Assembly: GCA_907163225.1 (NCBI GenBank) | Contig: OU015322.1 | Span: forward strand, 2,023,001 to 2,087,000 | Direction of reading: 5' to 3' | Length of the DNA stretch: 64,000 bases | Origin: an uncultured Rhodocyclaceae bacterium | Lineage (GTDB): Bacteria; Pseudomonadota; Gammaproteobacteria; Burkholderiales; Rhodocyclaceae | Shown here: one piece after another, positions 1,367 to 62,927 of the stretch | Position numbering within the stretch: the stretch's first letter is position 1 | How the letters are laid out: the number at the start of each line of letters is the position of its first letter | Translations under genes and position numbers: made by a program | The notes under the pieces: model-generated | Database searches by the model: none | What the model saw: only the letters and a program-made list of their open reading frames with translations | What the model was told of the DNA's origin: nothing

Positions 1367-1400
1367 ATTTTCCGAGCTTTTTTCCAGTTGACCGCAGCAT
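1367..1400 (+). repeat. dispersed GTTGACC element, copy 1
   Basis: Plus-orientation copy with the core TTTTTTCCAGTTGACCGCAG at 1378-1397, preceded by the A/T-rich left part. Intergenic, about 120 bp upstream of the gene at 1521. Confidence 0.75.
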
Positions 1401-1520
1401 TTGCACCGCTTGTCGTTGTGTCTGAACTTTGACGACCCCGAAAGCTCTGACCGACCATGACACAAAATCAACACCCATTCTTTGTCATAATGGTGGCCTG
1501 ATTGAATTTTGGGGATGTCG

Positions 1521-1988
1521 ATGCTACGCGCAGTTTTTGTTTTTTTTGGCTTGGTGATTCTGGCTGCAGTGGCCTGGGTGTGGGCAACGTTGACCTGGAG
1601 CTATTCTGAAGGCGAGCGTGCCGGGTATGTTCAAAAGTTGTCGCGCAAGGGCTGGTTGTGCAAGACCTGGGAAGGCGAGATCGCGATGGTGACCATGCCG
1701 GGCGCGATTCCGGATCGTTTCGAGTTTTCGGTACGCGATGAAGCCGTTGCCACGAAAATCAACGCGATGGCTGGGCAGCGGGTCATTCTGATTTATGAAC
1801 AGCATAAATTTGTGCCGACCAACTGCTTTGGCGAAACGGAATATTTCGTCAGCGACGTCCGGGCCGTGGGCGAACAGCCACAATCGCTGGCACCCGCTGT
1901 CGCACCGCCCCTGACCCCACCGGCCCCGGCACAGGCTGTCACGCCAAGCACGGCACCAGGCGCAGCCCCAACTATTCCGGCCAAGTGA
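1521..1988 (+). CDS. membrane-anchored conserved hypothetical protein
   Basis: About 155 residues starting MLRAVFVFFGLVILAAVAWVWATL, a single N-terminal membrane segment. A compact domain follows with two cysteines (GWLCKTWEG and PTNCFGETEY) and an FEFSVRDEAVATKINAMAGQ core, then a Pro/Ala-rich tail. This arrangement is familiar from small betaproteobacterial proteins of unknown function. I chose ATG 1521 because GGGGA at 1511-1515 is correctly spaced; ATG 1515 or TTG 1509 are alternatives. A CATAAT box near 1485 could be its promoter -10. No function can be assigned. Confidence 0.6.
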   Translation: MLRAVFVFFGLVILAAVAWVWATLTWSYSEGERAGYVQKLSRKGWLCKTWEGEIAMVTMPGAIPDRFEFSVRDEAVATKINAMAGQRVILIYEQHKFVPTNCFGETEYFVSDVRAVGEQPQSLAPAVAPPLTPPAPAQAVTPSTAPGAAPTIPAK

Positions 1989-2123
1989 TTGCCAGCTTGA
2001 GGCTTGCTTTGGTCGCTGAAATCACCTTGTGGGTTAACCTATTTCCGGGCTGATCATCGTCGAACATCCTTATCTCGACAGCATGTTACAATCTGCCCGT
2101 CATTTATAAAATATTGGACTCCC

Positions 2124-2696
2124 ATGAAGACACGTCGCTTTTTCGGATCAGCCGCACTGGTCGCGGCGGCAGCCTTGGCGCCGGCCGCCGCTCAGGCTGT
2201 CACCATCAGCTTTGCCTCTTTTGAGGACGAAGTCGTCTTTCTGGTCAACATTCAGCGCGCTGCCGTCGGTCTTGCCGCACTGGGCATGGACACCCGCCTG
2301 GCTGCCGCAGCCGAGGCCCACTCGATCGACATGGCAACCAACGACTGCTTCCAGCACAACAGTTGCAACGGTGGCGACTGGGCAACGCGGGTTTTCAGCT
2401 ACTACCCGTCGGCCGGGATAGGCGAAAACGTTGCTGCCGGCTACACCACGGCTGCCAGCGTGGTTGACGGCTGGATGAACAGCCCCGGCCACAAGGCCAA
2501 CATCCTGAACGCCAGCTACCAGGGCATTGGCGTCGGCTACTACGCGCTGGCCGGCTCCGATTACACCCACTACTGGACGCAGGATTTCGGTACGCTTACC
2601 CCGCTGGCTGCGGTGCCGGAACCGGGAAGCTACGCCATGCTGCTCGCTGGCCTCGGGCTGATTGGCGCAATTGCCCATCGCCGGCTGAACAAGTAA
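2124..2696 (+). CDS. CAP (SCP/PR-1) domain protein with PEP-CTERM sorting signal
   Basis: 190 residues. A signal peptide (MKTRRFFGSAALVAAAALAPAAAQA) is followed by a CAP domain: FLVNIQRAAVGLAAL, then AHSIDMATNDCFQHN, GENVAAGY and SPGHKANILNASYQGIGVG, which carry the usual His/Glu/His cavity residues. The C-terminus has the tripartite PEP-CTERM signal: VPEPGSYAMLLAGLGLIG, a hydrophobic segment, then HRRLNK. The protein is therefore probably exported and processed by an exosortase not encoded in this window. The start at ATG 2124 fits the signal peptide; an upstream frame extension to 2004 lacks one. A strong terminator follows. Confidence 0.9.
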   Translation: MKTRRFFGSAALVAAAALAPAAAQAVTISFASFEDEVVFLVNIQRAAVGLAALGMDTRLAAAAEAHSIDMATNDCFQHNSCNGGDWATRVFSYYPSAGIGENVAAGYTTAASVVDGWMNSPGHKANILNASYQGIGVGYYALAGSDYTHYWTQDFGTLTPLAAVPEPGSYAMLLAGLGLIGAIAHRRLNK

Positions 2697-2735
2697 TCAG
2701 GCGAATTGCCAGGGCGCTTCAGCCCTGATCAAAGA

Positions 2736-2765
2736 AAAGCGGCGCAGACATTTCTGCGCCGCTTT
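2736..2765. terminator. bidirectional intrinsic terminator
   Basis: Perfect 13-bp arms (AAAGCGGCGCAGA / TCTGCGCCGCTTT) with a 4-nt loop between the convergent genes ending at 2696 and 2813. A/T runs on both sides suit termination from either strand. Confidence 0.85.
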
Positions 2766-2766
2766 C

Positions 2767-5558: not shown

Positions 5559-5597
5559 TCCTTCGCTGATGAAAACGCCGGGCAATCCGGCGTTGTC

Positions 5598-5629
5598 AGT
5601 TTTTGCCGTTTTTTCCGGTTGACCCTGGG
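5598..5629 (+). repeat. dispersed GTTGACC element, copy 3 (variant tail)
   Basis: TTTTTTCCGGTTGACC core, then CTGGGGCCAGC instead of the usual GCAG tail. The 19 bp GGTTGACCCTGGGGCCAGC recur exactly in copy 5. Confidence 0.8.
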
Positions 5630-11462: not shown

Positions 11463-11508
11463 TTTCTTTGCCCAGACAAATTTCTCAGGCGTAGCGCTGG
11501 CCGCCTTT

Positions 11509-11544
11509 CAAAATTTGCCACTTTTCCCAGTTGACCGTAGAAAC
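11509..11544 (+). repeat. dispersed GTTGACC element, copy 4 (left arm of an inverted pair)
   Basis: AAAATTTG left part and CTTTTCCCAGTTGACCGTAG core. Copy 5 lies 27 bp on in opposite orientation, giving a REPIN-like doublet. Confidence 0.8.
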
Positions 11545-11570: not shown

Positions 11571-11603
11571 CCCAGGGTCAACCGGAAAAAATCACCAAAA
11601 TCT
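11571..11603 (-). repeat. dispersed GTTGACC element, copy 5 (right arm of an inverted pair)
   Basis: Minus-orientation copy: GGTCAACCGGAAAAAATC then CCAAAAT on the plus strand. Its tail shares 19 bp with copy 3. Confidence 0.85.
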
Positions 11604-11696
11604 GCGGCGAATCAACGAAGCGGAGACAGGCAATCGGCTGAGCAAAAAATGAATCGTTGAATTCTGCCCTCTCACTTAAAACTGGACGAATTGCCA

Positions 11697-14086: not shown

Positions 14087-14737
14087 TTGCCAACCGCCCC
14101 GCCCTCTGTCGGGGCGGTTGTCATTCAAGCCAGGAGATTTCAAATTCGCCCGATTTTTCCGGTTCACCGTAGCAATAGCCCCGTACGAACCGCCCGACAG
14201 CTGGCGGCTGGCCAAGGCGTCTATCAGGCTGGCGCCGATGGTCTGGCCTGGCGGCTCAACAGCGGGGTGATCCGGCTCGACAACGCGGGTTCTTCGGGCG
14301 AGATATCGTTTGCCAGCCTCGCCATCCCCGGCGACATCCTCGGCTGCGAGACCATGCTGTTCGGCTGCTACACCTTCTCGGCCACGGCGCTGACCCAGTG
14401 CGAGCTATCCCCCTGGCCGGAAGGCGCCGGCGCCATGGCTGGCGACTCCCTGCTCGCCTCGCTCGCCCAGGCCCAACAGCGAGCCGCCGAAATCGTCGCG
14501 CTGCGCGGTGGGCAGGCGGCGGATCGCGTCCTTGGGCTAATCCGGCTATTCACCGACAACGCCGGGCAAGTCGTGCTGCCAACCCGGCAGGACATTGCCG
14601 ACATCACCGACCTGCGCTTCGAAACCATCTCGCGCATCATCAAGATGCTGGAACGCAGCAAGGTGTTGCTGCCGATCAAGGTCGAGGGCGTGCACGCCAC
14701 GCGCAGTTATCGGGTCGATCCGGCATTCGCCAGCTGA
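14087..14737 (+). CDS. Crp/Fnr-family transcriptional regulator with disturbed start
   Basis: The body from about 14200 is a Crp/Fnr protein: effector domain RQLAAGQGVYQAGADGLAWRL and SGVIRLDN...LAIPGDILGCETMLFG, a dimerisation helix, and a winged HTH with LPTRQDIADITDLRFETISRIIKMLE, whose E-xx-SR recognition helix is Fnr-like. Three cysteines lie in the effector domain (GCETMLFGCYTF...TQCEL) and could be redox or metal ligands. No ATG precedes the domain; TTG 14087 lies inside the upstream hairpin, and the AGGAG at 14132-14136 is followed by repeat copy 6 where a start codon would be expected. It may act on the palindromes at 11697 and 20818. Confidence 0.7.
   Translation: MPTAPPSVGAVVIQARRFQIRPIFPVHRSNSPVRTARQLAAGQGVYQAGADGLAWRLNSGVIRLDNAGSSGEISFASLAIPGDILGCETMLFGCYTFSATALTQCELSPWPEGAGAMAGDSLLASLAQAQQRAAEIVALRGGQAADRVLGLIRLFTDNAGQVVLPTRQDIADITDLRFETISRIIKMLERSKVLLPIKVEGVHATRSYRVDPAFAS
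14092..14119 (+). terminator. hairpin after the receptor gene
   Basis: AACCGCCCCG and CGGGGCGGTT arms with an 8-nt loop, 25 bp after the receptor stop. The T-tract is weak, so it may be leaky and allow read-through into the regulator gene. Confidence 0.6.
14141..14175 (+). repeat. dispersed GTTGACC element, copy 6 (GTTCACC variant)
   Basis: ATTTTTCCGGTTCACCGTAG core at the N-terminus of the Crp/Fnr gene. It is read in frame as RPIFPVHRSN, nearly the same peptide as copy 16. Confidence 0.8.
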
Positions 14738-14749: not shown

Positions 14750-15214
14750 TTAGAAGCGCAGGCCGGTCGCTTTTTCGACCGTTGCGGTCGAGATGACGCC
14801 GGCGACGACTTCCTTGCCGCCACGTCCATCGAACAGGAAAGTCCGTGGCAATTCGCCGTGCCAGTTCGGGTCGATGGCATAGGCAATCGCGTCGGGATTG
14901 TCGGTGCCGTAGGCGTAGCGAGGCCCGGCCAGGGCGTAAGCATTCAGCATCGGCCAGAGTTGGGCGGATTCCGGCTCAGCCGCAACCGTAATCACGCGCA
15001 GCTTCTTGTTGCTTTTGGCCAGACGGGACACCAGTTTCAGGTTCTTTTTGCAGTAATTGCAGTCAGACGACCACAGGGCAATGATGGTCGCTTGCTGGTG
15101 ACTGCTCGGATTGAGCAGATTCTTCGCCGCCACTCGGTCGAGCGGCGTGAAATCGGCAGCGACCAGCGGGCCGGCGGCGACCAGGATCAGCAGGGCGAAA
15201 TATCGGCGAATCAT
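14750..15214 (-). CDS. thioredoxin-like periplasmic protein
   Basis: 154 residues: signal peptide (MIRRYFALLILVAAGPLVA) and a thioredoxin-fold domain with TIIALWSSDCNYCKKNL, giving a CxxC redox site (CNYC), and a cis-Pro region at GELPRTFLFDGRG. Reduction of disulfides or delivery of metal to exported copper proteins is plausible in this cluster. Its start overlaps the stop of the beta-propeller gene by 4 bp, so both are translated from one minus-strand mRNA that also covers the second TonB receptor. Confidence 0.8.
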   Translation of the reverse strand: MIRRYFALLILVAAGPLVAADFTPLDRVAAKNLLNPSSHQQATIIALWSSDCNYCKKNLKLVSRLAKSNKKLRVITVAAEPESAQLWPMLNAYALAGPRYAYGTDNPDAIAYAIDPNWHGELPRTFLFDGRGGKEVVAGVISTATVEKATGLRF

Positions 15215-16413
15215 TGGATCGGAAACACCCGGAAGCCTTCATTTTCGGTGCGCCAGAAAACAAAAAGCTGGTTCCGGCGACGGATGACGCGGGCCTGATC
15301 CGAGGCGCCATCACTGGCGGCCAGGGCGATGTCGGAAAAATTCTGGCCGCCGTCACTGGAAACCATGGCGCGCAACTGCGTGCGTTCGCCGTCGAATTCC
15401 TTCCAGGCAATCGCCAGCTTGCCGCCGGCCGCCGCCATGTCGGCATGCGCAGCGCGCGGACCGCCGATCGTGCGCTGGCCGTCGATTTCATTTTTGGCCA
15501 AATTTTCCGGTCGACCGTAGAAGACGCGGCCTTCGCCGTCCTTCTGGTTGAACCACACGGCGTGCCGCACGCCCTTTTCATCGACGACCAGCGATGGGCC
15601 ATGGTGCGGGCAGCCATCTACCTTCCAGCGGTCAAAGGTAGCGCGCTGCACGCTCTCCGCCGTACCGTCCGGCTTCAAGCGAGTGATAGCGTGGTCACGC
15701 TCGTTTGGCGCGAAAACGTGGCGCCACATGAAGAGTGGCGCACCGTCGCGGTCGACGGCGCTGGTCACCCGGCAGCATTCGCAGGAATTGTCAGCCAGTT
15801 TGTATTCGGGCTTGAAACTGCGCCCGCCGTCGGTCGACATCGCCGCGTAGATGGCTGCGCCCCGATAGGGCGTCTTGCTCGCCTTGGCTGCTTCCAGGTC
15901 GCGCTTGTCGATCCAGGCCAGGATCACGCGGTTGTCCGGCAAGGTCAGCATCGATTCGAAACGATGGGTGATGATCGCTGCGTCCTGATGCACCGTGATC
16001 GGTGGCGAAAAACGCTGGCCATCGTCGGCGCGCGCCAGACGAACCGAACCGGTGTTCGGCTTGGGAAACGGATGTGTCCATGAAACGAGCAGGCCGCCAT
16101 CGGCCGCGAAGGCGACCTTCGGACGGTTCTCGCCATCGGCCGAAATGGCCTCCGGTTGCGCGTTGACCGCAGCAGGCGCCGACCAGGTCTTGCCCTCGTC
16201 GGCGCTGCGGTAAATCATCACGTGCTCGCCCTGCTTGGCCGCCACGAGCAGGCTGCCGTCCGGGGCAAAGGCTGCCGACGCGCCAAGCTCCGGGCGGGGC
16301 TTCTTGGCCATGGCGGGCATGGCATCCGCCGCAACGGCCACCGTGGCGAGCAGCCCGAGCCCGAGAGCCAGGCTCCCGAACACGGGCCGAAGGAAGGCTT
16401 CAATACGTTTCAT
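15211..16413 (-). CDS. exported sialidase-like beta-propeller with Cys/His motifs
   Basis: About 400 residues with a signal peptide (LALGLGLLATVAVAADA) and several Asp-box (BNR) repeats such as RSADEGKTWSAP, STDGGRSFKPE and SSDGGQNFSDI, the mark of six-bladed sialidase folds. The unusual motifs NSCECCRVTSAVD and DGCPHHGPSLV are not sialidase catalytic residues and look like a metal-binding site. Position between a TonB receptor and a thioredoxin-like gene suggests a role in metal handling rather than sugar hydrolysis (inference). The start is ATG 16413 or 16425. Repeat copy 7 is embedded in frame near residue 304 (YGRPENLAKNE). Confidence 0.65.
   Translation of the reverse strand: MKRIEAFLRPVFGSLALGLGLLATVAVAADAMPAMAKKPRPELGASAAFAPDGSLLVAAKQGEHVMIYRSADEGKTWSAPAAVNAQPEAISADGENRPKVAFAADGGLLVSWTHPFPKPNTGSVRLARADDGQRFSPPITVHQDAAIITHRFESMLTLPDNRVILAWIDKRDLEAAKASKTPYRGAAIYAAMSTDGGRSFKPEYKLADNSCECCRVTSAVDRDGAPLFMWRHVFAPNERDHAITRLKPDGTAESVQRATFDRWKVDGCPHHGPSLVVDEKGVRHAVWFNQKDGEGRVFYGRPENLAKNEIDGQRTIGGPRAAHADMAAAGGKLAIAWKEFDGERTQLRAMVSSDGGQNFSDIALAASDGASDQARVIRRRNQLFVFWRTENEGFRVFPIQ
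15490..15523 (+). repeat. dispersed GTTGACC element, copy 7
   Basis: TTTTTGGCCAAATTTTCC then GGTCGACCGTAG. It lies inside the minus-strand beta-propeller gene, read as GRPENLAKN; compare GQPENSTK from copy 11 in mnmG. Confidence 0.8.
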
Positions 16414-39507: not shown

Positions 39508-39510
39508 GCG

Positions 39511-44403: not shown

Positions 44404-44421
44404 ATATTTCAACCGCGCAAA

Positions 44422-44994: not shown

Positions 44995-45007
44995 CAAAAC
45001 CTGGAAC

Positions 45008-45745: not shown

Positions 45746-45749
45746 GGCT

Positions 45750-46172: not shown

Positions 46173-46234
46173 AATTTCCTCCAGGATGAGGCCGCTAGTT
46201 TAGCGCACTCGCCCCAACACCGTGCCAAGATAGG

Positions 46235-47833: not shown

Positions 47834-47846
47834 TTTCGTACTCAAT

Positions 47847-48290: not shown

Positions 48291-48364
48291 CTCTCCAGTA
48301 ATCCGGACAGAATTACATTAGAAATCAATTCGCACAAGCCACCGGCTCAAACAAAGGCACTATT

Positions 48365-48398
48365 TCACGGTCAACCGGAAAAAACTGCCAAAATTTAT
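48365..48398 (-). repeat. dispersed GTTGACC element, copy 12
   Basis: CACGGTCAACCGGAAAAAAC then GCCAAAATTTA on the plus strand. The outer TTTA end provides the TAA stop codon (48395-48397) of the 1291-codon oxidoreductase gene. Confidence 0.85.
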
Positions 48399-51300
48399 AG
48401 CAATACGCGTTCGATCCCGCCGGTGTTGGCCTTGCCGACGTAATCCGCCATCCAGTTATCGCCGAGCAGATGCTTGGCCAGCTCGACCACGATGTAATCG
48501 GCCTTGGTGCCGGCATCTTCATCGTAACGGGAGAGGCCCTGCAGACAGGCCGGGCAGGAAGTCAGAATCTTGACATCGCCGGTGAAACCATCGGCGCGCA
48601 ACTTGGCGGCGCCACTTTCGATTTCTTCCTGCTTGCGGAATTTCACCTGTGTGGCGATATCCGGCCGGGAGTAGGCGAAGGAGCCTGAGTCGCCGCAGCA
48701 ACGGTCGGTGAGCGGTACGTCCTGGCCCATCAGCGCCTTGGTCACGGCGAGCGGGGCGTAGGCCTTCATCGGCGTGTGGCAAGGGTCGTGGTACATGTAG
48801 CGCGTGCCGCTGACACCGTCCAGCTTGACACCTTTTTCCATCAGATACTCGTGGATATCGAGCAGGCGGCAGCCTGGGAAGATCTTCTCGAACTGATATT
48901 TCTGCAGCTGATCCATGCAAGTGCCGCAGGAAACGATCACCGTCTTGATGTCGAGATAGTTCAGCGTGTTGGCGACGCGATGGAAGAGCACGCGGTTGTC
49001 CGTCGTGATCTTTTGGCCCTTGTCTTCGTCGCCAGATGCCGTCTGCGGATAGCCGCAGCACAGGTAGCCGGGTGGCAGAACGGTGGTCGCGCCGACTTCG
49101 TAGAGCATTGCCTGCGTTGCCAGGCCTACTTGCGAAAACAGGCGTTCGGAGCCGCAGCCGGGGAAGTAGAAGACGGCATCCGAATCCTCTGTGGTCTTCT
49201 TGGGGTTGCGGATGACCGGAATGACCTTGTCGTCCTCGATATCAAGCAGGCCGCGTGAAGTGCGCTTGGGCAGATTGCCCGGCATCGGTCGGTTGAGGAA
49301 GTGGATGATCTGCGTCTTGACTGTCGGCGCACCAAGCGACACCGGCGGATGCGCGCGGGTGTCCTGAACCAGTCCGAGCGCTTTGGCCGCTTTGTGGGCG
49401 AGGCGCTGAGCCTTGAAGCCGAAGTCCATCATGCCGAAACGCATGAGCTTGATGGTGGCCGGGTCTTTCAGGTTGAGATAGGTGATCGCTGCCCAGGTGC
49501 CGGGGCTGAAGCGCTTTTTTTCCTGCTTGCGCAGGAAGTTGCGCATGGCCACCGAAACGTCGCCGAAATCGATGTCGACCGGGCAAGGTTTCACGCAGCG
49601 ATGGCAGACCGTGCAGTGGTCGGCGACGTCGTTGAATTCGTCGAAATGCTTGAGCGAAATGCCGCGCCGGGTCTGCTCTTCGTAGAGGAAGGCTTCGACC
49701 AGCAGAGAGGTGGCCAGAATCTTGTTGCGCGGCGAGTAAAGCAGGTTGGCGCGCGGTACATGCGTCGAACACACCGGCTTGCACTTTCCGCAGCGTAGGC
49801 AGTCCTTGACCATGTCGGAAATCTTGCCGATTTCGGACTGTTCCATGATCAGTGACTCGGTGCCGAGCAGGCTGAACGACGGCGTGTAGGCGTTGCCAAG
49901 GTCGCCGCCGGGCATCAGCTTGCCCTTGTTGAAGCGGCCTTCCGGGTCGACCTTCTGCTTGTAGGCGCGGAAGGGGCCGAGTTCGGCTTCGGTCAGGAAT
50001 TCCAGCTTGGTGATGCCGATGCCGTGCTCGCCGGAAATGACGCCATCCAGCCCGCGGGCGATGTGCATGATGCGCTCGACGGCCTTGTTAGCCGATTGCA
50101 GCATCTCGTAATTGTCGGAATTGACCGGCAGGTTGGTATGCACGTTGCCGTCGCCGGCGTGCATGTGCAAGGCGACGAAGACGCGGCCGCGCAGCACTTC
50201 CTTGTGGATGGCTTCGATGCGCTCGATGATCGGGCGATAGACGCCGCCGTCGAAAATCTTGGCCAGCCGGGCATGCAGCTCCTGCTTCCACGACGTGCGC
50301 ACCGAGTAATCCTGCAGGCGGTGGAACAAGGTCGGGTTATCGGCCCGGTTGGTCAGTTCACCGGCCACCAAGCCATACGACGCGAAGCGCGATTCAGCCT
50401 CAGCCAGCGGCAGATCGAGGTTTTCAAGCAGCCATGCCCAGCGCAAACGGACGGCTTCGACGTAGTCGAGCGCGGCCTGCCGGCGGTCGCCAATCAGCAC
50501 GTCGGTATCAAGCGTCGTGTCACCGCGATGCAGCGGCAGGTCGCCTTTGAGGAAGGCGCTCACAGCATCGCACAGGGCCAGCTTGTTCTGCGTCGACAGC
50601 TCGATGTTGATGCGCTCGATACCGTCGCAGTAATCGCCCATGCGCGGCAACGGGATGACCACGTCTTCGTTCAGCTTGAAGGCGTTGGTGTGGCGCGAAA
50701 TGGCGGCAGTGCGCGAACGATCGAGCCAGAATTTCTTGCGCGTTTCCGGGTTGACCGCAATAAAGCCCTCAGCCGCGCGCAGGTTGCACATGCGGACGAC
50801 TTCGGAAGCAGCGGCCATCACGGCGTTTTCGTCGTGGCCGACAAGATCGCCGATGAGCACCATCTTCGGCCGACCATGACGCTTGGCCTTGGTCGCATAG
50901 CCGACGGCCTTCACATAGCGCTCGTCGAGGTGCTCCAGACCAGCTAGCTGGACGCCGGCGGCATGCCCGGCACCGCCCGGCTTGAAGTAATCGGTGATCT
51001 CGACGATGGCCGGCACGGCTTCGCGCACCTGGCCGAAGAACTCCAGACAAACCGTGCGCGCCACCGGCGGCATCTTGTGCAGCACCCAGCGGGCGGCAAC
51101 GATGATGCCGTCGGTGCCTTCCTTCTGCACTCCCGGAATGCCGCCGAGGAATTTGTCGGTCACATCCTTGCCCAGTCCGATCTTGCGACAGGCAGCGCCC
51201 GGCATGACCAGGATTTCTTCGCCAAGGAATTTCTTGCCGCTAGCATCGAAACGCTTCAAGCGGAACTCGACGTTTTCCTGCTCGTGAATCTTGCCGTAAT

Positions 51301-52270
51301 TGTGATTGACCCGTTCGACTTCCAGCCAGTTGCCGTCCGGATCGACCATCTTCCACCAGGCCAGGTTGTCGAGCGCGGTACCCCACAGCACAGCCTTCTT
51401 GCCGCCGGCGTTCATGGCGATGTTGCCGCCGATGCACGAAGCAGAGGCCGAAGTCGGGTCGACCGCAAAGACGCGGCCAGCCAGCGAGGCAGCTTCGGAA
51501 ACGCGGTCGGTCACCACGCCCGCGCCGGTGCGAATGGTGGCGTAGGGCGTTTCATGGCCAGCCAGCACCAGTTCTTCAACCGGGCCGATGTCGATCAGTT
51601 TTTCGGTGTTGATCACTGCCGCATTGCGGGTCAGCGGCACAGCGCCGCCGGTGTAGCCAGTGCCGCCACCACGGGCGATGATGGTCAGGCCGGCTTCGAT
51701 ACAACCGCGCACGAGATGGCCGATTTCCTCTTCGGTATCCGGATTGAGGACGACGAAGGGGTATTCGACACGCCAGTCAGTGGCATCGGTAACGTGCGAA
51801 ACACGGGCCAGGCCGTCGAAAGCAATGTTGTCCTTGCGCGTGTGCTTGCTCAGGATGCGCGTTACCTTGCGCCGCAGATCGTAGGTTTCGGCGAAACGTT
51901 CGGCGAAACGATTGACCGCGTCGCGTGCCGCATCGACTAGGCGCTTGACCTTGGCAGCCCGCTCCAGGTCGTCACCTTCCGTTGCGGTACGGCGCTTTTC
52001 CACCTCGGAAAGCCGGTGGTGCAAGGCGTTGACCAGCGCATCGCGCCGCTCGCGATTGTCGAGCAGGTCGTCTTCCAAATAGGGGTTGCGCTGGACAACC
52101 CAGATGTCGCCCAGCACCTCGTAAAGCATGCGGGCCGAGCGCCCGGTGACGCGCTCGGAACGGAGCTCGTCGAGCACCGCCCAGTTGTCGGCGCCAAGCA
52201 GGCGGATGACGATCTCGCGATCGGAAAACGAGGTGTAGTTGTAGGGTATTTCGCGCAGGCGGGCGTTCAT
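48395..52270 (-). CDS. FAD-linked oxidoreductase with DUF3683, Fe-S and CCG domains (YdiJ-type)
   Basis: 1291 residues. An N-terminal DUF3683-like region ([22 protein letters not shown]) is followed by FAD_binding_4 ([56 protein letters not shown]), an FAD-oxidase C-terminal domain ([27 protein letters not shown]), two [4Fe-4S] motifs [11 protein letters not shown] and [11 protein letters not shown], and CCG repeats ([22 protein letters not shown]). The layout fits D-2-hydroxyacid dehydrogenases of the GlcD/YdiJ group that feed electrons to the quinone pool. Substrate is unknown. The stop codon lies in repeat copy 12. Confidence 0.9.
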
Positions 52271-52370: not shown

Positions 52371-53720
52371 TTAAGCACCAACGATCTTGAGCAAGAGCCC
52401 GAGAAGCGCACTGGCAGCAATTACCCGCATGACGCTTTGCTTGAAACGGAAAAGTGCCAGCGCGGCAGCCAGTGCGATGGCGGCTGAAACGAAGTCAAAA
52501 TTGCCGGCAAAACCCTGCGGCCACAGCACGTGGTAAGCGAAAAACAAGGCCAGATTGAGGATGACGCCGACCACTGCCGCCGTAATCGCCGTCAGCGGCG
52601 CGGTGAAATTGAGATTGCCGTGCGTCGTCTCGACCAGCGGTCCGCCGAGCAGTATGAAAATAAACGAGGGCAGGAACGTGAACCACGCCACGACGCTGGC
52701 CGCGATTGCCCCCGCCAGGAACAGGCCATCCGGCCCGAACATGGCCTGCATTTGCGGCGCCTGGGTGCCACCAACGAAGCCGACGAAAGCAACGACCATG
52801 ATCAGCGGCCCCGGCGTCGTTTCGCCCAGCGCCAGGCCGTCGATCATCTGGGTTGGCGTCAGCCAGCCGAAATGCGTCACGGCGCCCTGATAAACGTAGG
52901 GCAGCACGGCGTAGGCGCCGCCGAAAGTGAGCAACGCCGCCTTGGTGAAGAACCAGCCCATCTGGGTCAGCGTGTGACTCCAGCCGAGCGTGGCGGCAAG
53001 CAGGCCCATCGGTAGCGCCCAGAGCAGGGCGCCGATGACGGCCACGGTGAGCAGGCGTGACCAGCGGAACACGGCGTGCTCCGGCGTTGGGGTTCCATCG
53101 TCGATCAGCGCCGGCCCTGCGGATTTGGCGCTTTTTCCGTGTTGACCGTGGGATTTGAAGAAATTCGGCCACAAGCGCCCGCCAAGGTAACCAATCAGCG
53201 CGGCAACAACGACAATCGCCGGAAATGGCGTGGCAAAAACGAAAATCGCAACGAAGGCTGCCGCTGCAATCGCCCACAGCAGCTTGTTCTTCAGTGCCCG
53301 CAAGCCGATGCGCCAAGCCGCCTGCAGCACGATGGCGGTGACCGCCGGCTTGATGCCAAAAAACAACCCGGCGACCAGCGTCGTGTTGCCGTAGGCAATG
53401 TAAATCCACGACAGGGCGATCAGGATGAACAACGAAGGCAGCACGAACAGCACGCCGGCAACGATGCCGCCCCAGGTCCTGTGCATCAGCCAGCCGATGT
53501 AGGTCGCCAGTTGTTGCGCCTCCGGCCCGGGCAGCACCATGCAGTAATTGAGCGCGTGGAGGAAACGGCCTTCCGACAGCCAGCGGCGTTTCTCGACGAG
53601 CTCCTGGTGCATCATCGCGATCTGTCCGGCCGGGCCGCCAAAACTGATGAAACCGAGTTTGAGCCAGAAGCGGAAGGCTTCCCAGAAAGTGACAGGGGCG
53701 GGTGGCGAGGAATCGGACAT
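52371..53720 (-). CDS. chrA: chromate transporter ChrA, two-domain
   Basis: 449 residues: two homologous CHR domains, each with an N-terminal FxxFxLGFISFGGPAGQ-like motif (FWLKLGFISFGGPAGQIAMMHQELVEKRRWLSE; TKAALLTFGGAYAVLPYVYQGAVTHFGWLTPTQMIDGLALGETTPGPLIMVVAFVG). Ten to twelve membrane helices. ChrA exports chromate; some family members may move sulfate. Start ATG 53720 overlaps the stop of the YqaA-type gene by one base. Repeat copy 13 encodes part of the linker between the two domains (SHGQHGKSAKSAG). Confidence 0.88.
   Translation of the reverse strand: MSDSSPPAPVTFWEAFRFWLKLGFISFGGPAGQIAMMHQELVEKRRWLSEGRFLHALNYCMVLPGPEAQQLATYIGWLMHRTWGGIVAGVLFVLPSLFILIALSWIYIAYGNTTLVAGLFFGIKPAVTAIVLQAAWRIGLRALKNKLLWAIAAAAFVAIFVFATPFPAIVVVAALIGYLGGRLWPNFFKSHGQHGKSAKSAGPALIDDGTPTPEHAVFRWSRLLTVAVIGALLWALPMGLLAATLGWSHTLTQMGWFFTKAALLTFGGAYAVLPYVYQGAVTHFGWLTPTQMIDGLALGETTPGPLIMVVAFVGFVGGTQAPQMQAMFGPDGLFLAGAIAASVVAWFTFLPSFIFILLGGPLVETTHGNLNFTAPLTAITAAVVGVILNLALFFAYHVLWPQGFAGNFDFVSAAIALAAALALFRFKQSVMRVIAASALLGLLLKIVGA
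53120..53152 (+). repeat. dispersed GTTGACC element, copy 13
   Basis: GGATTTGGCGCTTTTTCC then GTGTTGACCGTGGGA. It lies in the inter-domain linker of chrA and is read as HGQHGKSAKS, the GQPEN frame. Confidence 0.7.
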
Positions 53721-56843: not shown

Positions 56844-56879
56844 AAGACTCACTGCCACGGTCAACCCGAAAAACCGCCC
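56844..56879 (-). repeat. dispersed GTTGACC element, copy 14
   Basis: CCACGGTCAACCCGAAAAAC then GCCCAAAATTCAA, beginning 6 bp after the nucleotidyltransferase stop. Confidence 0.85.
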
Positions 56880-56924
56880 AAAATTCAAAACCCCGCCCAG
56901 GCTGACGCCACCGATGCCACCGAC

Positions 56925-57257
56925 TCAAGCCCCGCGCGGCGCAAACATGATGATCGCCATGCCGGCCAGCGCCACCGCCGAGCCCAGCACATCCCACGTC
57001 GTCGGCCGGATGCCATCGACCAGCCACAGCCAGACAATCGCCACGCCGATATAAACGCCGCCATAAGCCGCATAAACCCGCCCGGCCGCCGCCGGATGCA
57101 GCGACAGCAACCACGCGAACAAGGCCAGACTGAGCGCCGCCGGCAGCAGCAACCAGACGCTGCGCCCCTCGCGCAGCCACAGATAAGGCAGGTAACAGCC
57201 GACAATCTCGGCCACCGCCGTGACGAGGTACAGCAACAAGGTCTTCAATTCAGGCAT
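56925..57257 (-). CDS. YnfA/UPF0060 family membrane protein
   Basis: 110 residues, four membrane helices: [87 protein letters not shown]. This is the UPF0060 pattern, a small transporter-like family of uncertain function related to SMR proteins. Single gene, convergent with the nucleotidyltransferase. Confidence 0.9.
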
Positions 57258-57391
57258 CGGCCAAGCCAGGACGAAAACCCCATGTTAGCCGAACCCGGCG
57301 GGGCCAGTCCTCACCGTTCGCCCTGAGTCGCGGGCCCGCCCGCGCATCAAAGAGCCAGCCAAAAGATGCCTGCCCCACGCCGCCCACATTT

Positions 57392-57426
57392 CAATTTTGG
57401 CCAAAATATCCAGTTGACCGCAGCAA
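57392..57426 (+). repeat. dispersed GTTGACC element, copy 15
   Basis: CAATTTTGGCCAAAATATCC then AGTTGACCGCAGCA, 60 bp upstream of the restriction-modification gene. Confidence 0.85.
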
Positions 57427-57485
57427 TCATTCCCCAATCCCGTCGTCATCGCTAAACTGCGCTTTTCCCTCCCAAACGCCGCCCC

Positions 57486-60400
57486 ATGACCCCCGAAGCC
57501 TTCATCGCCCACTGGAAAAACAACGCCACCACCGAACGGGCCGGGGCGCAGCAGCATTTCAGTGATCTCTGCGACCTGCTCGGCGTCGAAAAACCGCGCG
57601 ATCCCGAGAATTACTGCTTCGAGCGCGGCGCCGGCAAATCCAGCGGCGGCAACGGCTGGGCCGACGTCTGGAAGCGCGGCCACTTCGGTTGGGAAAACAA
57701 GAAACCCGGCCGCGACCTCAACGCCGCCCTCAAGCAACTCACCGACTACGCCCTGCAGCTCGACAACCCGCCGCTACTCGTCGTCTGCGACCGCGAAAAC
57801 ATCATCATCCACACCGCCTTCACCGGCTACCCGGACGAACCGCGCGAAATCCGCATCGAACAACTGATCGAGCCGGAAGCCCGCCAGCTCCTCAAATGGG
57901 TCTTCACCGACCCCGAAAAACTCCGCCCCGAAAAATCCACCGCCGCCATCACGGCCCAAGCCGCCGGCCAGTTCGCCCAGCTCGCCGCCGCCATGCGGAC
58001 ACGCGGTGAAGAAGGCCAAAAAGTCGCCCACTTCCTCGTCCAGTGCCTGTTCTGCATGTTCGCCGAAGACGAACAACTCCTCCCCGCCGGCATCTTCACC
58101 GACCTCCTCAAAAACGCCGGCAGCGACGCCGACAAAGCCGCCCGCCGCATCGAAAAACTCTTCACCGCCATGCAGAAAAAAGGCGGCGACTACGGCGACC
58201 ACGACATCGCCTGGTTCAACGGCGGCCTCTTCAAACACATCGACGTCCCGCCGCTCACCGCCACCGACCTCCAAGCCCTGCACCGCGCCGCCGCCGACAT
58301 GGACTGGCGCGCCATCGACCCCACCATCTTCGGCACACTGTTTGAGCGCGGCCTCGACCCCGCCGCCCGCGCCCCGCTCGGCGCCCACTACACCGACACC
58401 GGCACCATCGCCAAACTCATCGAGCCGCTGGTCAGCGAACCGCTCGCCGCTGAATGGGCCAAAATCCGCCCCCAACTCGCCGCCGGCCACGGCCACGGCC
58501 CCAAAAGCAAAGAAGGCAAAGCCGCCCGCGCCGCCTACCAAAGCTTCCTGCTCCGCCTCAACGCCTACCGCGTCCTCGACCCCGCCTGCGGCTCCGGCAA
58601 CTTCCTGTATCTCGCCCTCAAAGCCCTGCGCGACATCGAAAAACGCGCCCACGTCGACGCCCAGGAACTCGGCCTGCAACCCGAACTCTCCATGCAAACC
58701 GGCCCGCACAACATCCTCGGCCTCGAAATCAACGAATTCGCCGCCGAACTCGCCCGCGTCACCGTCTGGATCGGCGACATCCAATGGTGCCGCCGCAACG
58801 GCTACCCGCACGCCATCAACCCCATCCTCAAACCGCTCGACGGCATCGAACACCGCGACGCCCTGCTGACTTTCCACCCTCCCTTTCAAGGGGAGGGCAG
58901 GGGTGGGGATGGGTTAGCCGCCACCGAAGCCACCTGGCCCACCGCCGACGTCATCGTCGGCAATCCGCCCTTCCTCGGCGACAAAGTCATGCGCAGCGAA
59001 CTCGGCGCCGCCTACGTTGAAACCCTGCGCAAAACCTACGACGGCCGCGTCCCCGGCGGCGCCGACCTCGTCACCTACTGGTTCGAAAAAGCCCGCGCCC
59101 AGATCGCCGCCGGAAAACTGCAAGCCGCCGGCCTCGTCGCAACACAATCCATTCGTGCCGGCGCCAACCGCAAGGTGCTCGAACGCATCGTCGACACCAC
59201 CCGCATTTTCGAAGCCTGGAGCGACGAAGAATGGGTCAACGACGGCGCTGCCGTACGCGTTTCGCTATTGGGATTTGGGCCGATTTTTCCGGTTCACCGT
59301 GGGAATCGGCTGGATGGCGCAGAAGCGGCGTCGATCCACGCCGATTTGACGGCAGGCGCAGGACTGGATCTCACAAAAGCAAAATGCCTCCCCGAAAACA
59401 CACCCGCCGCCTTTATTGGCACACAGCAAAACGGCCCATTCAACCTTACGTTCGAAGAGGCCGCCGAATGGCTACGACAACCGAACCCGAATGGCCGTCC
59501 AAATCTCGATGTACTCAAACCGTGGGCCAACGGGCAAGACCTCGCCAAGCGCCCGACGCACACTTGGATCATCGACTTTGGAATCCAATTGTCCGAAGCG
59601 GAGGCTTCGCTCTACGAATTGCCGTTTGCGCAAATCTCCCGCGACGTTCGCCCGATGCGCGAAGCAGGCAACCGCGAATCGCGGAAACGAAATTGGTGGC
59701 GGCTCGGCGAGCCGATGCCAGCCTTGCGCGCCGCGATTGAACCGTTGGGGCGCTACCTTGCTACACCGCGCGTCGCCAAGCATCGCTACTTCGTCTGGCT
59801 GCCCAGCCAAGTCTTGCCCGACTGCCGCCTCACGGTAATCGCACGCCAGGACGACCTGACGCTGGGGCTTCTTTCGTCGCGCCCACACCTGCTTTGGGCA
59901 CTCGCCAACGCCTCGATGCACGGAGTCGGCAACGACCCAACCTACAACGCCAAATCCTGCTTCGAAACCTTCCCCTTCCCGCCCGGCCTCACCCCGCGCG
60001 ACACCGCCCCCGTCGCCGGACTAGCCTCGCCGCCCTGCATGGCCGGCGAAATCGTCGCCGCCAACATCGCCGCCGCCGCCCGCCGCCTGAACGAACTGCG
60101 CGAGAACTGGCTAAACCCGGCCGAGTGGGTCGATTGGGTCATCACCCCGGAAGAAGAAAAAGCCGGCTTCCCCAAACGCCCGGTCGCCAAACCCGGCTTT
60201 GAGGCCGACCTGAAAAAACGCACCCTGACCAACCTCTACAACGCCCGCCCCGCCTGGCTCGACCTCGCCCACAAACAACTCGACCAAGCCGTCGCCACCG
60301 CCTACAACTGGCCCGACTACACCCCCGAAACCCGACGAAGAAATCCTCCGCCGCCTGCTGGCGCTGAATCTGGAACGGGCCAGCCAGCCATGAACGACGC

Positions 60401-61001
60401 CCCCTGCGCTTTCAAGGTCGGCGACAAGGTCGTTCTGCAGTGGCTTGGCCCGGATCAGCCGGAGGCCGTGGTGACAGCTATCAACGTCCTGCGAACCTGC
60501 CCCTCAGTCTGTACGGTTTCAGTGGCTTATGCAGCCGGCAAGCAGCTCACGCTTGGCCCAGCCAGCCTCCGCCCGGCCAGCGAAAAGGCCGGGCTGCCTG
60601 CCCCCACCTGGCCGCTGTCAGCCCCAGTTGCCCTCTTCTACCACCCGCGCCCCGGCCCGCTTCTGGCGCCAGACTGGGAAGAAGACGAACTGTCGGAGGC
60701 TGCACTGGTCGAGGCGCTGGCTAATTGGGAGGGTGCGGTAGATTGCATCGCTTCCGGTTACAACTACCGCCTGGATTTCGATGAGTACGACTACGATCTG
60801 TTCAAACGGGAGTGTGTGCACGCCCTGTTGGCCAGCTTCGAGCGCCTGAAACAGCCGGTGCCTGAAGCGCTGGCCCTGCGCATCGCCGAGGCTGACGATC
60901 GTTTCAGGGATTTAACGGCGGCATGCGACTTCGTCAAAAGCGCACAGGACTACGACCCAACGGCCTTCTGGTATTACTTCCGCTGGCCGCGCCATCTTTG
61001 A
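57486..61001 (+). CDS. MmeI-type (type IIL) restriction-modification protein, frameshifted into the next gene
   Basis: Residues 1-968 are an MmeI-like single-chain enzyme. The nuclease is near the N-terminus (Asp60, Glu70 and Lys72 in WADVWKRGHFGWENKK, D-x9-ExK spacing as in MmeI). A helical spacer follows, then a gamma-type DNA methyltransferase with DPACGSGNF near 365 and NPPF near 493, and a target-recognition region with ETFPFP. The normal end (DEEILRRLLALNLERASQP-stop) lies in the +1 frame at 60334-60393; one extra base in GAAACCC at 60327-60333 fuses this ORF to the following 203-codon gene. Two repeats are inserted in frame (58871-58916; 59270-59303). Activity is therefore doubtful. 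Confidence 0.82.
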   Translation: MTPEAFIAHWKNNATTERAGAQQHFSDLCDLLGVEKPRDPENYCFERGAGKSSGGNGWADVWKRGHFGWENKKPGRDLNAALKQLTDYALQLDNPPLLVVCDRENIIIHTAFTGYPDEPREIRIEQLIEPEARQLLKWVFTDPEKLRPEKSTAAITAQAAGQFAQLAAAMRTRGEEGQKVAHFLVQCLFCMFAEDEQLLPAGIFTDLLKNAGSDADKAARRIEKLFTAMQKKGGDYGDHDIAWFNGGLFKHIDVPPLTATDLQALHRAAADMDWRAIDPTIFGTLFERGLDPAARAPLGAHYTDTGTIAKLIEPLVSEPLAAEWAKIRPQLAAGHGHGPKSKEGKAARAAYQSFLLRLNAYRVLDPACGSGNFLYLALKALRDIEKRAHVDAQELGLQPELSMQTGPHNILGLEINEFAAELARVTVWIGDIQWCRRNGYPHAINPILKPLDGIEHRDALLTFHPPFQGEGRGGDGLAATEATWPTADVIVGNPPFLGDKVMRSELGAAYVETLRKTYDGRVPGGADLVTYWFEKARAQIAAGKLQAAGLVATQSIRAGANRKVLERIVDTTRIFEAWSDEEWVNDGAAVRVSLLGFGPIFPVHRGNRLDGAEAASIHADLTAGAGLDLTKAKCLPENTPAAFIGTQQNGPFNLTFEEAAEWLRQPNPNGRPNLDVLKPWANGQDLAKRPTHTWIIDFGIQLSEAEASLYELPFAQISRDVRPMREAGNRESRKRNWWRLGEPMPALRAAIEPLGRYLATPRVAKHRYFVWLPSQVLPDCRLTVIARQDDLTLGLLSSRPHLLWALANASMHGVGNDPTYNAKSCFETFPFPPGLTPRDTAPVAGLASPPCMAGEIVAANIAAAARRLNELRENWLNPAEWVDWVITPEEEKAGFPKRPVAKPGFEADLKKRTLTNLYNARPAWLDLAHKQLDQAVATAYNWPDYTPETRRRNPPPPAGAESGTGQPAMNDAPCAFKVGDKVVLQWLGPDQPEAVVTAINVLRTCPSVCTVSVAYAAGKQLTLGPASLRPASEKAGLPAPTWPLSAPVALFYHPRPGPLLAPDWEEDELSEAALVEALANWEGAVDCIASGYNYRLDFDEYDYDLFKRECVHALLASFERLKQPVPEALALRIAEADDRFRDLTAACDFVKSAQDYDPTAFWYYFRWPRHL
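58871..58916 (+). repeat. C/G-run repeat (CTCCCTTTCAAGGGGAGGG type) inserted in the R-M gene
   Basis: CCCTCCCTTTCAAGGGGAGG is a small hairpin, followed by GCAGGGGTGGGGATGGGTT. This kind of sequence is widespread as an intergenic repeat in proteobacterial genomes. Here it adds about 15 residues (FHPPFQGEGRGGDGL) just before methyltransferase motif IV. Confidence 0.7.
59270..59303 (+). repeat. dispersed GTTGACC element, copy 16 (GTTCACC variant)
   Basis: GGATTTGGGCCGATTTTTCC then GGTTCACCGTGGGA. Read in the R-M protein as GFGPIFPVHRGN, sharing PIFPVHR with copy 6. Confidence 0.85.
60390..61001 (+). CDS. hypothetical 203-aa protein, probably a separate gene originally
   Basis: ATG 60390 overlaps the TGA (60391-60393) that would end the R-M gene in its proper frame, an ATGA coupling. 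The protein starts MNDAPCAFKVGDKVVLQWL, with a KOW- or Tudor-like beta start, then a Pro-rich middle (PLSAPVALFYHPRPGPLLAP) and an acidic helical C-terminus (WEEDELSEAALVEALANWEG; DFDEYDYDLFKRE). I do not recognise the family. Coupling to the R-M gene suggests an accessory or control role, unproven. Because of the frameshift it now reads in frame with the R-M ORF. Confidence 0.55.
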   Translation: MNDAPCAFKVGDKVVLQWLGPDQPEAVVTAINVLRTCPSVCTVSVAYAAGKQLTLGPASLRPASEKAGLPAPTWPLSAPVALFYHPRPGPLLAPDWEEDELSEAALVEALANWEGAVDCIASGYNYRLDFDEYDYDLFKRECVHALLASFERLKQPVPEALALRIAEADDRFRDLTAACDFVKSAQDYDPTAFWYYFRWPRHL

Positions 61002-61079
61002 CTGGAAAAATTGATCGCCCTCCCGCCTCGCATCAGGAACGCACATCACACCGACACGCTAAACCTCTTAAATCTCCGC

Positions 61080-61331
61080 ATGGATTACACCCTCAGCGCT
61101 CACGCCACAACGACCGTCCGATAGCGAGATATTCGCTCTGAATGGATTGCTGCGACCTTGTCCGATCCGGCAGCAACCGAACCTGACCCGGATGATCCAA
61201 CACTTACCCACGCGCTGCGCATCATTCCCGAATTTGGGGAGCGTGTGTTGCGCGTGATCTACAATCGAACCAAGCAAGCTCCGCATGTCGTGACAGCATT
61301 TTTCGACCGAGGATTGAAAGGAAAGCTATGA
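61080..61331 (+). pseudogene. DUF4258 (toxin-like) gene broken by an in-frame TAG
   Basis: The frame starting MDYTLSAHATTTVR meets TAG at 61122-61124 and then continues REIRSEWIAATLSDP, HALRIIPEFGERVLRVIYNRTKQAPHVVTAFFDRG to a TGA that overlaps the DUF2283 start. The combined 83 codons have the DUF4258 layout: a start with SxHA, a REI helix and a C-terminal VLRVIYN...VVTAFFDR strand pair. DUF4258/DUF2283 pairs are predicted toxin-antitoxin-like modules. The amber codon would stop synthesis after 14 residues. Confidence 0.7.
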
Positions 61332-61513
61332 AACTCGAATACGATCCGGCGGCCGATGCGCTTTACGTTCGCCTGAACGACCAACCCATCATTGAATCCG
61401 AGCAGATCAAGCCCGGTATCGTGCTCGACTACGACGAGGCAGGAAACGTCGTCGGCGTCGAAGTCCCGAGCGCCAGCAAGCACGATAACGCGCCGCTGAA
61501 ACAGGCGGCCTGA
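61328..61513 (+). CDS. DUF2283 domain protein (partner of DUF4258)
   Basis: 61 residues: KLEYDPAADALYVRLNDQPIIESEQIKPGIVLDYDEAGNVVGVEVPSASK is a complete DUF2283 domain (YDPxADALYVxL ... DxxGxVVGVEI). Overlaps the broken DUF4258 gene by ATGA. In such pairs it is the presumed antitoxin; here it survives while its partner is disrupted. Confidence 0.88.
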   Translation: MKLEYDPAADALYVRLNDQPIIESEQIKPGIVLDYDEAGNVVGVEVPSASKHDNAPLKQAA

Positions 61514-61796
61514 TCGCTCGGCTTGCCTTTCTTGTTTGCGCATAAAACGCGGGTTTTAAAACTACTTGCAGAGAATCCGGAGCACGGTAGAGGCTGGTTG
61601 CGGCGGGATTAAATCCAAATCGATGTTTTGAGGCAGCTAGTTACAAAATCAGCGGCCATGCCAATACATAAGCCGTTGGCATCGCCTTGTATTTATTCGA
61701 CTTTCCCAAAATCTCACGGGCAATTAACAACAACGAGCAGGGAACGCTATTTACAAAATAGCCGGGACCAAAAACAGAAACGCGTTCAGCTTGAGG
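61514..61796. other. gene-free stretch after the DUF2283 gene
   Basis: About 280 bp. AAAACGCGGGTTTT near 61542-61555 is a small terminator-like palindrome. No other gene, repeat or RNA is apparent; A/T content is higher than in the flanks. Confidence 0.4.
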
Positions 61797-62867
61797 CTAG
61801 CCCAGCATCTCCATCTGCCGCGCGTTCCAGTCGAGCACTGCGGTGCGGGTGGTCATCCGGGCGGCGAGTTCGGGGAATTCCTGTGCCACGACGTTGGCGG
61901 CGAAGCCGGACATGAAGCGGGCCTTGAGTTCGGCGCGGGCGCGGTCGACGCCGATTTCGTCGTAGGGCACGGAGGCGAGCAGCAGGAAGCCGTCGTCGGG
62001 AATGCGCCCGGCTTTCATGTTGCTCTCGATGATGCCAGCGGCCTTGCGCACGGGGTCAGCGAGGTCGGGGCTGTAGGGGCCGATGATGAGGGCGAGGTTG
62101 GGGGTGTGCAGGAAGTCGAAGCCGCGCCCGATGCAGATGACCCATTCGCGGTGCTCGATGTCGAGCCGGCGTTCGCGGCGGGCGGTTTGGTCGCGGATTT
62201 CGGCGATGTGGTCGAGGTTGCCACGGAGCAGCGGGAGGAGGTCGGCCCGCATTTGCGCCGGCATGTCGGGCAGGGTGGCGGCGAGGCGGGGTTCGAGGGT
62301 GGCGAGGTCGTCGGCGGCCAGGCTGGCGAGGTCGAGCACCGTGCCGTCGCTGCCGTGGAGAGTGAGCGCTTCTTCGTCGGTTTCAAAGCCGCAGACGAGG
62401 GGGTAAACGGTGCCGTGGCCTTGGCCGAAGATGTGTTCCATCTGCCGACGAATTTGTTGGGTGTGGGCGAGGGCGGCGGCGGTGTCGTAGCCGAAGCCGG
62501 CGCAGCCGCGCTTGGCGTCGCCGCGCGACCAGTGGTAGGTGATGAGAAAGAGCACGCGCCGGCCGGCCCCGACCATGCGCTGGACGTGGTGGGCGACAAC
62601 TTCGCCGAGGTGCGGCCAGCCGAGGTCGAACATGCCGCCGAGGTTGCGAAAGGGCATCAGGATGCCGGCCGGGGTGTTGGTGGCGACGGGGATGTTGATG
62701 CGGCCGTCCATGCATTTGAGCACGGCGATGGCGGTGGGGTGCTCGGCCAGGTAGCGCTGGCGGGCCAGCCAGGCTTCCGGGCTGCGGAAGGTCTCGCCGT
62801 GGCGCCGGGCGAGGTCGAACAGCCAGTCGATGCGCTGGCCGATGGGCTGGTTGTGGATGTCGTTCAT
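61797..62867 (-). CDS. beta-carbonic-anhydrase-like conserved protein
   Basis: 356 residues. [23 protein letters not shown] contains CxDxR (Cys52, Asp54, Arg56), the zinc/active-site motif of beta-carbonic anhydrases, and [20 protein letters not shown] further on provides His and Cys candidates for the other ligands, though not in the exact HxxC spacing. The second half ([31 protein letters not shown]) is not typical of compact beta-CAs. A CsoSCA-like or divergent CA enzyme is possible; the call is tentative. ATG 62867 follows GGAGGGGAC. Confidence 0.5.
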
Positions 62868-62892
62868 GTCCCCTCCGTGGATCGCTTGGTGT

Positions 62893-62927
62893 CGATTTTT
62901 TGCCTTTTTTTGCCGTCGACCGCAGGA
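62893..62927 (+). repeat. dispersed GTTGACC element, copy 17 (GTCGACC variant)
   Basis: CGATTTTTTGCCTTTTTTTG then CCGTCGACCGCAGGA, between the divergent carbonic-anhydrase-like and cysK genes, 25 bp before the minus-strand start. Confidence 0.8.

Follow-up and report, generated by a model that had tools for sequence, protein, structure and literature searches.

The stretch analysed here, hereafter the window, comprises 64,000 nucleotides of contig OU015322.1 (positions 2,023,001 to 2,087,000) from an uncultured Rhodocyclaceae bacterium. Its own 3.46-Mb genome is labelled G000, and the other G-numbers denote relatives. The window carries many copies of a dispersed, oriented element, which we interpret as a putative DNA uptake signal sequence (USS). 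Copies are scored with a 37-bp profile refined on a 464-kb sample, composed of the window and 20 evenly spread 20-kb stretches of G000 (21 stretches), and a site counts as a copy at 18 bits or more. Genes were called by a home-made hexamer method, so that gene boundaries are approximate. A sequence-only reading of the window had listed 17 copies. Sixteen of them are clear, scoring 32.8–48.2 bits with a 37-bp profile built from the window and rechecked with the 464-kb profile. The copy listed at 27267 (27260–27296, +) is degenerate and doubtful: it reaches 10.4 bits, under the cut-off, and each of 20 mononucleotide shuffles of the window also gives 0–2 matches above 10 bits. Four copies that had escaped the list, at 21390–21426 (−), 33521–33557 (−), 36975–37011 (+), and 50724–50760 (+), score 26.5–34.8 bits.

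Between genes, copies are located at 1361–1397 (+, 42.0 bits), 2760–2796 (+, 39.0 bits), 5592–5628 (+, 44.1 bits), 14136–14172 (+, 45.4 bits; an orthologous copy is present in G053), and 62889–62925 (+, 38.6 bits). Those at 11504–11540 (+, 44.3 bits) and 11572–11608 (−, 36.7 bits) form an inverted, head-to-head pair. The intergenic copy at 21899–21935 (+, 48.2 bits) starts 6 bp past the Rfam 5′ end of a transfer-messenger RNA (tmRNA; 21563–21893, −) of the permuted two-piece betaproteobacterial type (RF01850, RF04321), for which ARAGORN gives the ends 21543–21872. An MmeI-like restriction-modification gene (57486–61001, +; region 56855–61001) has two intergenic copies directly before it (56855–56891, −, 48.2 bits; 57387–57423, +, 43.7 bits) and one inside (59266–59302, +, 40.8 bits). 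The site of the inner copy aligns with a copy in the low-copy relative G052 and without a copy in G041; in the regions retrieved from G053, G074, and G060, no alignment crosses it.

The other copies in the window lie in or across coding sequences (CDS). The copy at 15484–15520 (+, 47.9 bits) is within CDS 15211–16413 (−), and the corresponding site of G052 is gap-free without a copy. The copies at 21390–21426 (33.2 bits), 31097–31133 (−, 36.2 bits), and 53115–53151 (+, 32.8 bits) are within CDS 20858–21544 (+), the DUF6600-family CDS 28819–31236 (−), and the chromate-transporter-type CDS 52371–53720 (−), respectively. The mnmG/gidA gene (33198–35129, +) contains two copies: one at 33521–33557 (31.6 bits), which is altered by point substitutions in relatives, and one at 34808–34844 (−, 47.9 bits), which falls in a length-variable segment of the 3′ part. 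Point substitutions also alter, in relatives, the copy within parB (36975–37011, 34.8 bits). Directly after it, an 11.4-kb stretch (37012–48364; 55.5% GC), which includes the ATP synthase operon, is free of copies. The copy at 48365–48401 (−, 43.8 bits) overlaps the 3′ end of CDS 48395–52270 (−), and the same CDS contains a weaker copy at 50724–50760 (26.5 bits).

The element is real and dispersed, and not a product of chance. The 16-bp core TTCCGGTTGACCGYAG with up to three mismatches has 21 matches in the window, as compared with 1.13 (s.d. 0.94, maximum 4) in 100 dinucleotide shuffles. A scan of the whole genome, named in the sequence-only reading as the refutation test, finds the core with up to two mismatches 316 times in the forward and 303 times in the reverse orientation, against 5 and 1 for a reversed-pattern control. 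The element recurs about every 3 kb in G000, with a mean spacing of 2.8 kb over the 464 kb, where 156 copies reach 18 bits; five mononucleotide shuffles give 0–1 profile matches even at 12 bits. As the profile had been fitted to the very sequence that it scans, the genome count and the reversed-pattern control constitute the independent evidence. We agree with the earlier assessment that the copies are not spaced as in CRISPR arrays and do not resemble the ends of insertion sequences. The element matches no Rfam family at gathering threshold, and the two Rfam matches in the window are the tmRNA families. The plus-strand bias noted in the window (12:5) is not general, the ratio being 89:67 in the 464-kb sample and 316:303 genome-wide.

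The 37-bp element is composed of a near-invariant core, GT[T/C]GACCG, and two A/T tracts centred 11 bp apart. In a logo built from the 155 copies with full flanks in the 464-kb sample, G and T at +5/+6 and C and C at +10/+11 are all at 100%, followed by A at +9 (99%), G at +8 (97%), and G at +12 (95%); position +7 is T in 80% and C in 19%. The complete GTYGACCG is present in 143 of the 156 copies. The A/T tracts, at −14 to −11 and −3 to 0, are 93–100% A or T, mixed, with weaker edges of 60–85% A/T. The logo reveals no conserved flank outside about −19 to +17, beyond which no position exceeds 0.22 bit; the conserved element is therefore about 37 bp and not the ~33 bp first estimated. Such uneven constraint, with a near-invariant GTTGACCG and A/T tracts one helical turn apart, looks like that of a recognition site and not that of a decaying repeat. 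Read as the reverse complement, the element runs CT(G/A)CGGTCAACCGG, an A/T tract, about five mostly G/C bases, and a second A/T tract. The base after GTTGACCG is C in 58% and T in 39%, and the USS orientation therefore reads GCGG or ACGG.

The core words show a marked preference for perfection. In the 464 kb of G000, the 9-mer GGTTGACCG occurs 94 times versus 12.1 expected from a fourth-order Markov model, an excess of 82, and its 27 one-mismatch words together occur 261 times versus 248.5 expected, an excess of just 12.5. In G053, G074, and G002, the perfect 9-mer occurs 13–15 times versus 2.0–2.3 expected, and the mismatched words stay under expectation. With GTTGACCGC/T, the one-mismatch words exceed expectation by 45 and 42, because Y varies. 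The full 16-bp consensus is looser, with 17 of the 156 copies perfect, 36 bearing one mismatch, and 45 bearing two. Perfect cores far exceeding singly mismatched ones are described as a puzzling hallmark of the USS and of the DNA uptake sequence (DUS) in PMC1626085.

Copies populate the chromosome evenly and on both strands. The 156 copies divide into 87 inside CDS, 61 intergenic, and 8 across a gene edge, which corresponds to an intergenic density 5.0 times that in CDS. Inside genes, 57 copies are antisense to the gene and 30 run along it (P = 0.005), and certain reading frames are strongly preferred. Convergent gaps hold 19 of the 61 intergenic copies, and close pairs are few: 6 of 135 spacings are below 150 bp, one of them the head-to-head pair in the window. 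Each of the 21 stretches round the chromosome has copies on both strands, at 0.2–0.5 per kb; the strand bias relative to replication for which a check had been suggested does not appear, as no switch occurs in step with GC skew among these stretches. Counts per 2 kb are under-dispersed (variance 0.436; randomly placed copies give 0.671, s.d. 0.062, and none of 500 simulations falls this low), indicating that the spacing of copies is more even than random. In addition, the lowest GC tenth has 0.29 copies per 2 kb versus 0.56–0.97 in the other GC classes, opposite to what composition only would predict for an A/T-rich motif.

To follow the origin of copies, we aligned the nine CDS copies of the window with the corresponding regions of five relatives (76 kb each around the window's region). 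Of the 45 alignments, 38 are usable; in the seven dropped, none crosses the site. With absence defined as a score below 18 bits, 23 CDS alignments lack the copy, and 18 of these are gap-free over the 37 bp. Gaps interrupt the remaining five: large ones in three alignments at 34808 and ones of 1–2 bases in two at 15484. All 20 aligned relatives differ by substitutions only at 33521 in mnmG and at 36975 in parB. The alignments suggest that most alignable copies in genes arose by substitution and not by copying. For the USS, an origin by mutation rather than by copying is put forward by Redfield and colleagues (PMC1626085). Between genes, 8 of 55 comparisons are alignable, and 2 of the 8 have the copy, both in G053.

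Enrichment of the motif, as judged by a strict pattern (WTTTTNNNNGTYGACCGYR, zero mismatches; 0–2 matches in controls), is confined to one genus. Within the genus, a strict match is present in 70 of 76 genomes; 41 genomes reach 20 matches or more, and 25 reach 100 or more. Outside the genus, each of 393 genomes in an order-wide sample of 399 holds 0–2 matches, and so does each of the other 397 of the 398 genomes in a phylum sample that overlaps it; a different dialect in other taxa would be missed by the strict pattern. We infer that the genus is of the Dechloromonas/Azonexus type, the nearest genus-named ParB relative being that of Dechloromonas sp. SSB2 (89%); Azonexus is called "formerly Dechloromonas" in PMC12455942. 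Among the matches listed, the species variants are TTCCGGTTGACCGYAG in G000, ...CCGGTTGACCGTGG in G002, TTTTTCACGGTCGACCGTG in G042, TTTTTTGCCGTYGACCGCR in G065, and TTGCGGTCGACCGCAG in G008; GTYGACCG is common to all five and the flanks differ. Copy number varies even between close relatives. G060 has 3 strict matches, yet a tree built from six proteins of 21 genomes nests it in the high-copy clade with support 98/97; 9 of the 18 inner branches of this tree are weak. Per 76 kb, G060 has 4 profile copies, G074 16, and G053 21. In 20–76 kb from each of the low-copy genomes G041, G060, G016, G056, G063, and G018, no other over-represented word stands out.

Genes for DNA uptake are widespread in the genus. 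Of the 76 genomes, 71 encode ComEC and 75 DprA, and type IV pilin-like genes are present in all eight genomes examined. Since low-copy species have both ComEC and DprA, the two permit uptake but do not single it out. The comEC gene is truncated or interrupted in low-copy G018 and G080 and reads in two frames in G060, where the frameshift, a single lesion, may be a sequencing error. The integrity of comEC as a predictor of copy number is nonetheless unsupported, as low- and high-copy genomes overlap in intact and broken comEC. A receptor was sought with PF16732 (ComP_DUS) over the 76 genomes and PF07963 (N-methylation) over eight, combined with clustering and charge, and none was identified. 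The PilE-like (PF16732) and FimT-like pilins of a cluster at 1087 kb in G000, named by resemblance, are candidates only. Clusters of PilE/FimT-like minor pilins vary strongly in sequence and arrangement among species of the genus (G000, G042, G053, G052, and others).

In high-copy G002, comEC is interrupted by a ~34-kb insert (contig 33, about 109.6–143.3 kb) that carries a serine recombinase, a phage-type DNA polymerase (PolB), a type ISP restriction system, and a Y-family polymerase. The 34.5 kb covering the insert contains no copy, and the flanks contain seven in 19.5 kb and four in 19 kb (Poisson P = 5e-5). According to PMC7371117, absence of the DUS can be used to spot foreign elements. 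In G080 (C1, about 2218.7–2251.2 kb), comEC is likewise split, by a gap of a length similar to that of the G002 insert. G052 has 20 strict matches genome-wide, and in stretches selected for containing matches its near-consensus copies form dense clusters, with five in 11.4 kb and four in 5.3 kb. Some parts of one cluster share 90–93% identity with high-copy species, but also 91% with mid-copy G044 and 88% with the low-copy genomes G091 and G018; the conserved mnmG is 89% identical between G052 and G000. This suggests import from motif-rich relatives. G052 also contains a different dispersed repeat, REP-like (resembling repetitive extragenic palindromic elements) by eye, with the form GTCATCCCCGC... 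/ ...GCGGGAACGAC (L272, 16814–16914 and 18197–18298).

Taken together, these features make a DNA uptake signal sequence the probable identity of the element, which behaves like one in the distributional respects tested, save gene-end bias and intergenic sites. The main rival, which we consider unlikely, is that it is the site of a cytoplasmic chromosome-organising protein (nucleoid-associated, condensin-loading, or CTCF-like) under direct local selection. A profile resembling a protein site with phased A/T tracts, even spacing, gap-free origin at most alignable gene sites, and copies in all 21 stretches and on both strands would all be expected of such a site. However, close relatives manage without it, such as G060 within the high-copy clade; the near-consensus copies of low-copy G052 form clustered islands; and neither the species variants nor a USS-like plan is predicted by it. 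A very strong consensus is, moreover, described as unlike that of intracellular regulatory sites (PMC1626085). Although the sequence-only reading was apt in proposing a protein-binding site, the nucleoid or segregation protein that it named explains the distribution less well than an uptake receptor does. A segregation or recombination signal with strand polarity (KOPS- or Chi-like), or a site restricted to ori or ter (parS- or matS-like), is scarcely credible: the motif is oriented and the window adjoins gidA-parAB, but copies occur on both strands in every stretch at 0.2–0.5 per kb throughout, without a switch linked to GC skew.

A mobile microelement, REP-like or otherwise, whose copies are made by a transposase such as RAYT (a REP-associated tyrosine transposase), had also been proposed but is very improbable here. 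High copy number, a strong consensus, an asymmetric and partly palindromic form, and the gaps at 34808 and at the few alignable intergenic sites without a copy are compatible with mobility, and G000 does contain one RAYT-like (Y1_Tnp) gene and one short fragment. The search for such a gene thus succeeded, but the gene (L275 1139–1922, G000 about 1.157 Mb) is bounded by a perfect 18-bp inverted repeat, GGGGACAGACCACGGTTT, that is unlike the element, and its 3.3-kb locus has a single element copy, about 1 kb away and on one side only. Mobility is contradicted at most alignable gene sites by gap-free counterparts, and the many in-gene copies in preferred reading frames, the lack of a conserved flank, and the copy-free insert of G002 tell against it as well. 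A transcriptional element (terminator, promoter, or regulator operator) is also highly unlikely. It would agree with the intergenic enrichment, the share of copies in convergent gaps, the few close pairs, and the copy beside the tmRNA gene, and inverted pairs serving as secondary terminators are possible; but 87 of 156 copies are inside genes in either orientation, and more than 600 copies would be too many for an operator.

Several observations weigh against an uptake signal. Ten of the 18 gap-free alignments come from the sites 36975 and 50724 and are not independent, and 50724 is the weakest CDS copy. The segment around the mnmG site 34808 is missing in 11 of 21 genomes, mostly low- or mid-copy ones but also G014, which has 103 strict matches. 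All six intergenic alignments without a copy hold gaps of 1–18 bases, so that insertion or deletion may have occurred between genes. No clear gene-end bias is seen, the 87 CDS copies being even over gene tenths, and the Pasteurellaceae USS is described as biased to gene termini (PMC2346458). The copy-free G002 insert is the single informative one, and any slowly accumulating chromosomal site would also be absent from fresh inserts. A viral contig, L277 (IMGVR_UViG_3300033565_000011), with a CII-like gene, carries two copies in 10.8 kb and is the sole viral contig found with the exact G000-type pattern; it is perhaps a phage adapted to a motif-rich host, and uptake sequences are reported to accumulate in Pasteurellaceae prophages (PMC7371117). 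Among competence genes, many low-copy species (e.g., G041 and G047) keep comEC in one open frame, while the gene is interrupted in high-copy G002, broken in G008 (85 strict matches), and without a match in G021 (153 strict matches; 74% complete). Pilins of the ComP type (PF16732) are encoded by 70 of the 76 genomes irrespective of copy number, and among 75 pilin-like sequences from loci of 14 genomes, which amount to no genome's full pilin set, no pilin group separates high- from low-copy genomes. Finally, GCGG, the USS inner core according to PMC12616744, is not invariant in the element (CTRCGG, with GCGG or ACGG), so that by sequence it falls outside the USS family of Pasteurellaceae.

We picture the proposed uptake signal sequence as follows. 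A surface receptor associated with the type IV pilus, probably a minor pilin, would bind the core GTTGACCG (5′-CGGTCAAC), with the two A/T tracts, spaced by one helical turn, helping the DNA to bend on its way through the outer-membrane pore. ComEC would then carry one strand to the cytoplasm, where DprA and RecA would recombine it. Because motif-bearing fragments are, we propose, preferentially taken up, mutations that improve a site would spread by recombination. Motifs would build up evenly and on both strands of the resident chromosome, most densely between genes; elsewhere, they would settle where the reading frame permits. Recently arrived foreign DNA would stay motif-free.

Self-DNA uptake tags are described as known only in Neisseriaceae and Pasteurellaceae (PMC12616744), and within the open literature searched we found no report of an uptake sequence or signal for Dechloromonas or Rhodocyclaceae. 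It seems likely, if with somewhat less assurance than the uptake function itself, that this genus represents a third lineage with its own tag and species dialects, converged on the bipartite plan of Haemophilus (a CGGT core and two phased 3′ A/T tracts). If so, a genus with both high- and low-copy species would offer an independent test of how tags originate and persist and of the features of their receptors. A common plan of core and two A/T tracts would point to DNA bending at the pore as a force that shapes the tag, and convergence would imply a shared physical constraint of the uptake machine in place of descent from one ancestral tag. These environmental bacteria would direct gene exchange towards kin, and the tag would provide a practical handle for transforming bacteria of the Dechloromonas/Azonexus type.

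Among known systems, the element most resembles the USS of Pasteurellaceae (Hin type AAGTGCGGT, Apl type ACAAGCGGT) in plan: in both, a core is followed by two 3′ A/T tracts about one turn apart. In H. influenzae, the second A/T segment of AAGTGCGGT is centred 12 positions from the first (PMC1626085), as compared with 11 bp in the element. CGGT is common to both, and TGCGGT is present in part of the element copies. Both occur on both strands with more-even-than-random spacing, with perfect cores far above singly mismatched ones, with intergenic enrichment yet many in-gene copies, with a point-mutational origin at most alignable gene sites, and with species or subclade variants. The element differs in its longer core (CTRCGGTCAACCGG), in A/T tracts that begin, by our own arithmetic, about 6 bp farther from CGGT, in its lower density (about 1 per 3 kb versus about 1 per kb), in the absence of a visible gene-end bias, and in its betaproteobacterial host genus. 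With REP elements and their RAYT, it has in common hundreds of dispersed, partly intergenic copies, but the ends of the RAYT-like gene differ from the element, and most in-gene sites without a copy are gap-free. With the DUS of Neisseriaceae, it shares a home in the Betaproteobacteria, many dispersed copies, dialects between species, and a genus in which ComP-family minor pilins occur. The DUS is described as a continuous motif of up to ~13 nt with a CTG core and no A/T tracts (PMC12616744), whereas the element has such tracts; likeness in sequence was noted just in short words, without formal comparison.

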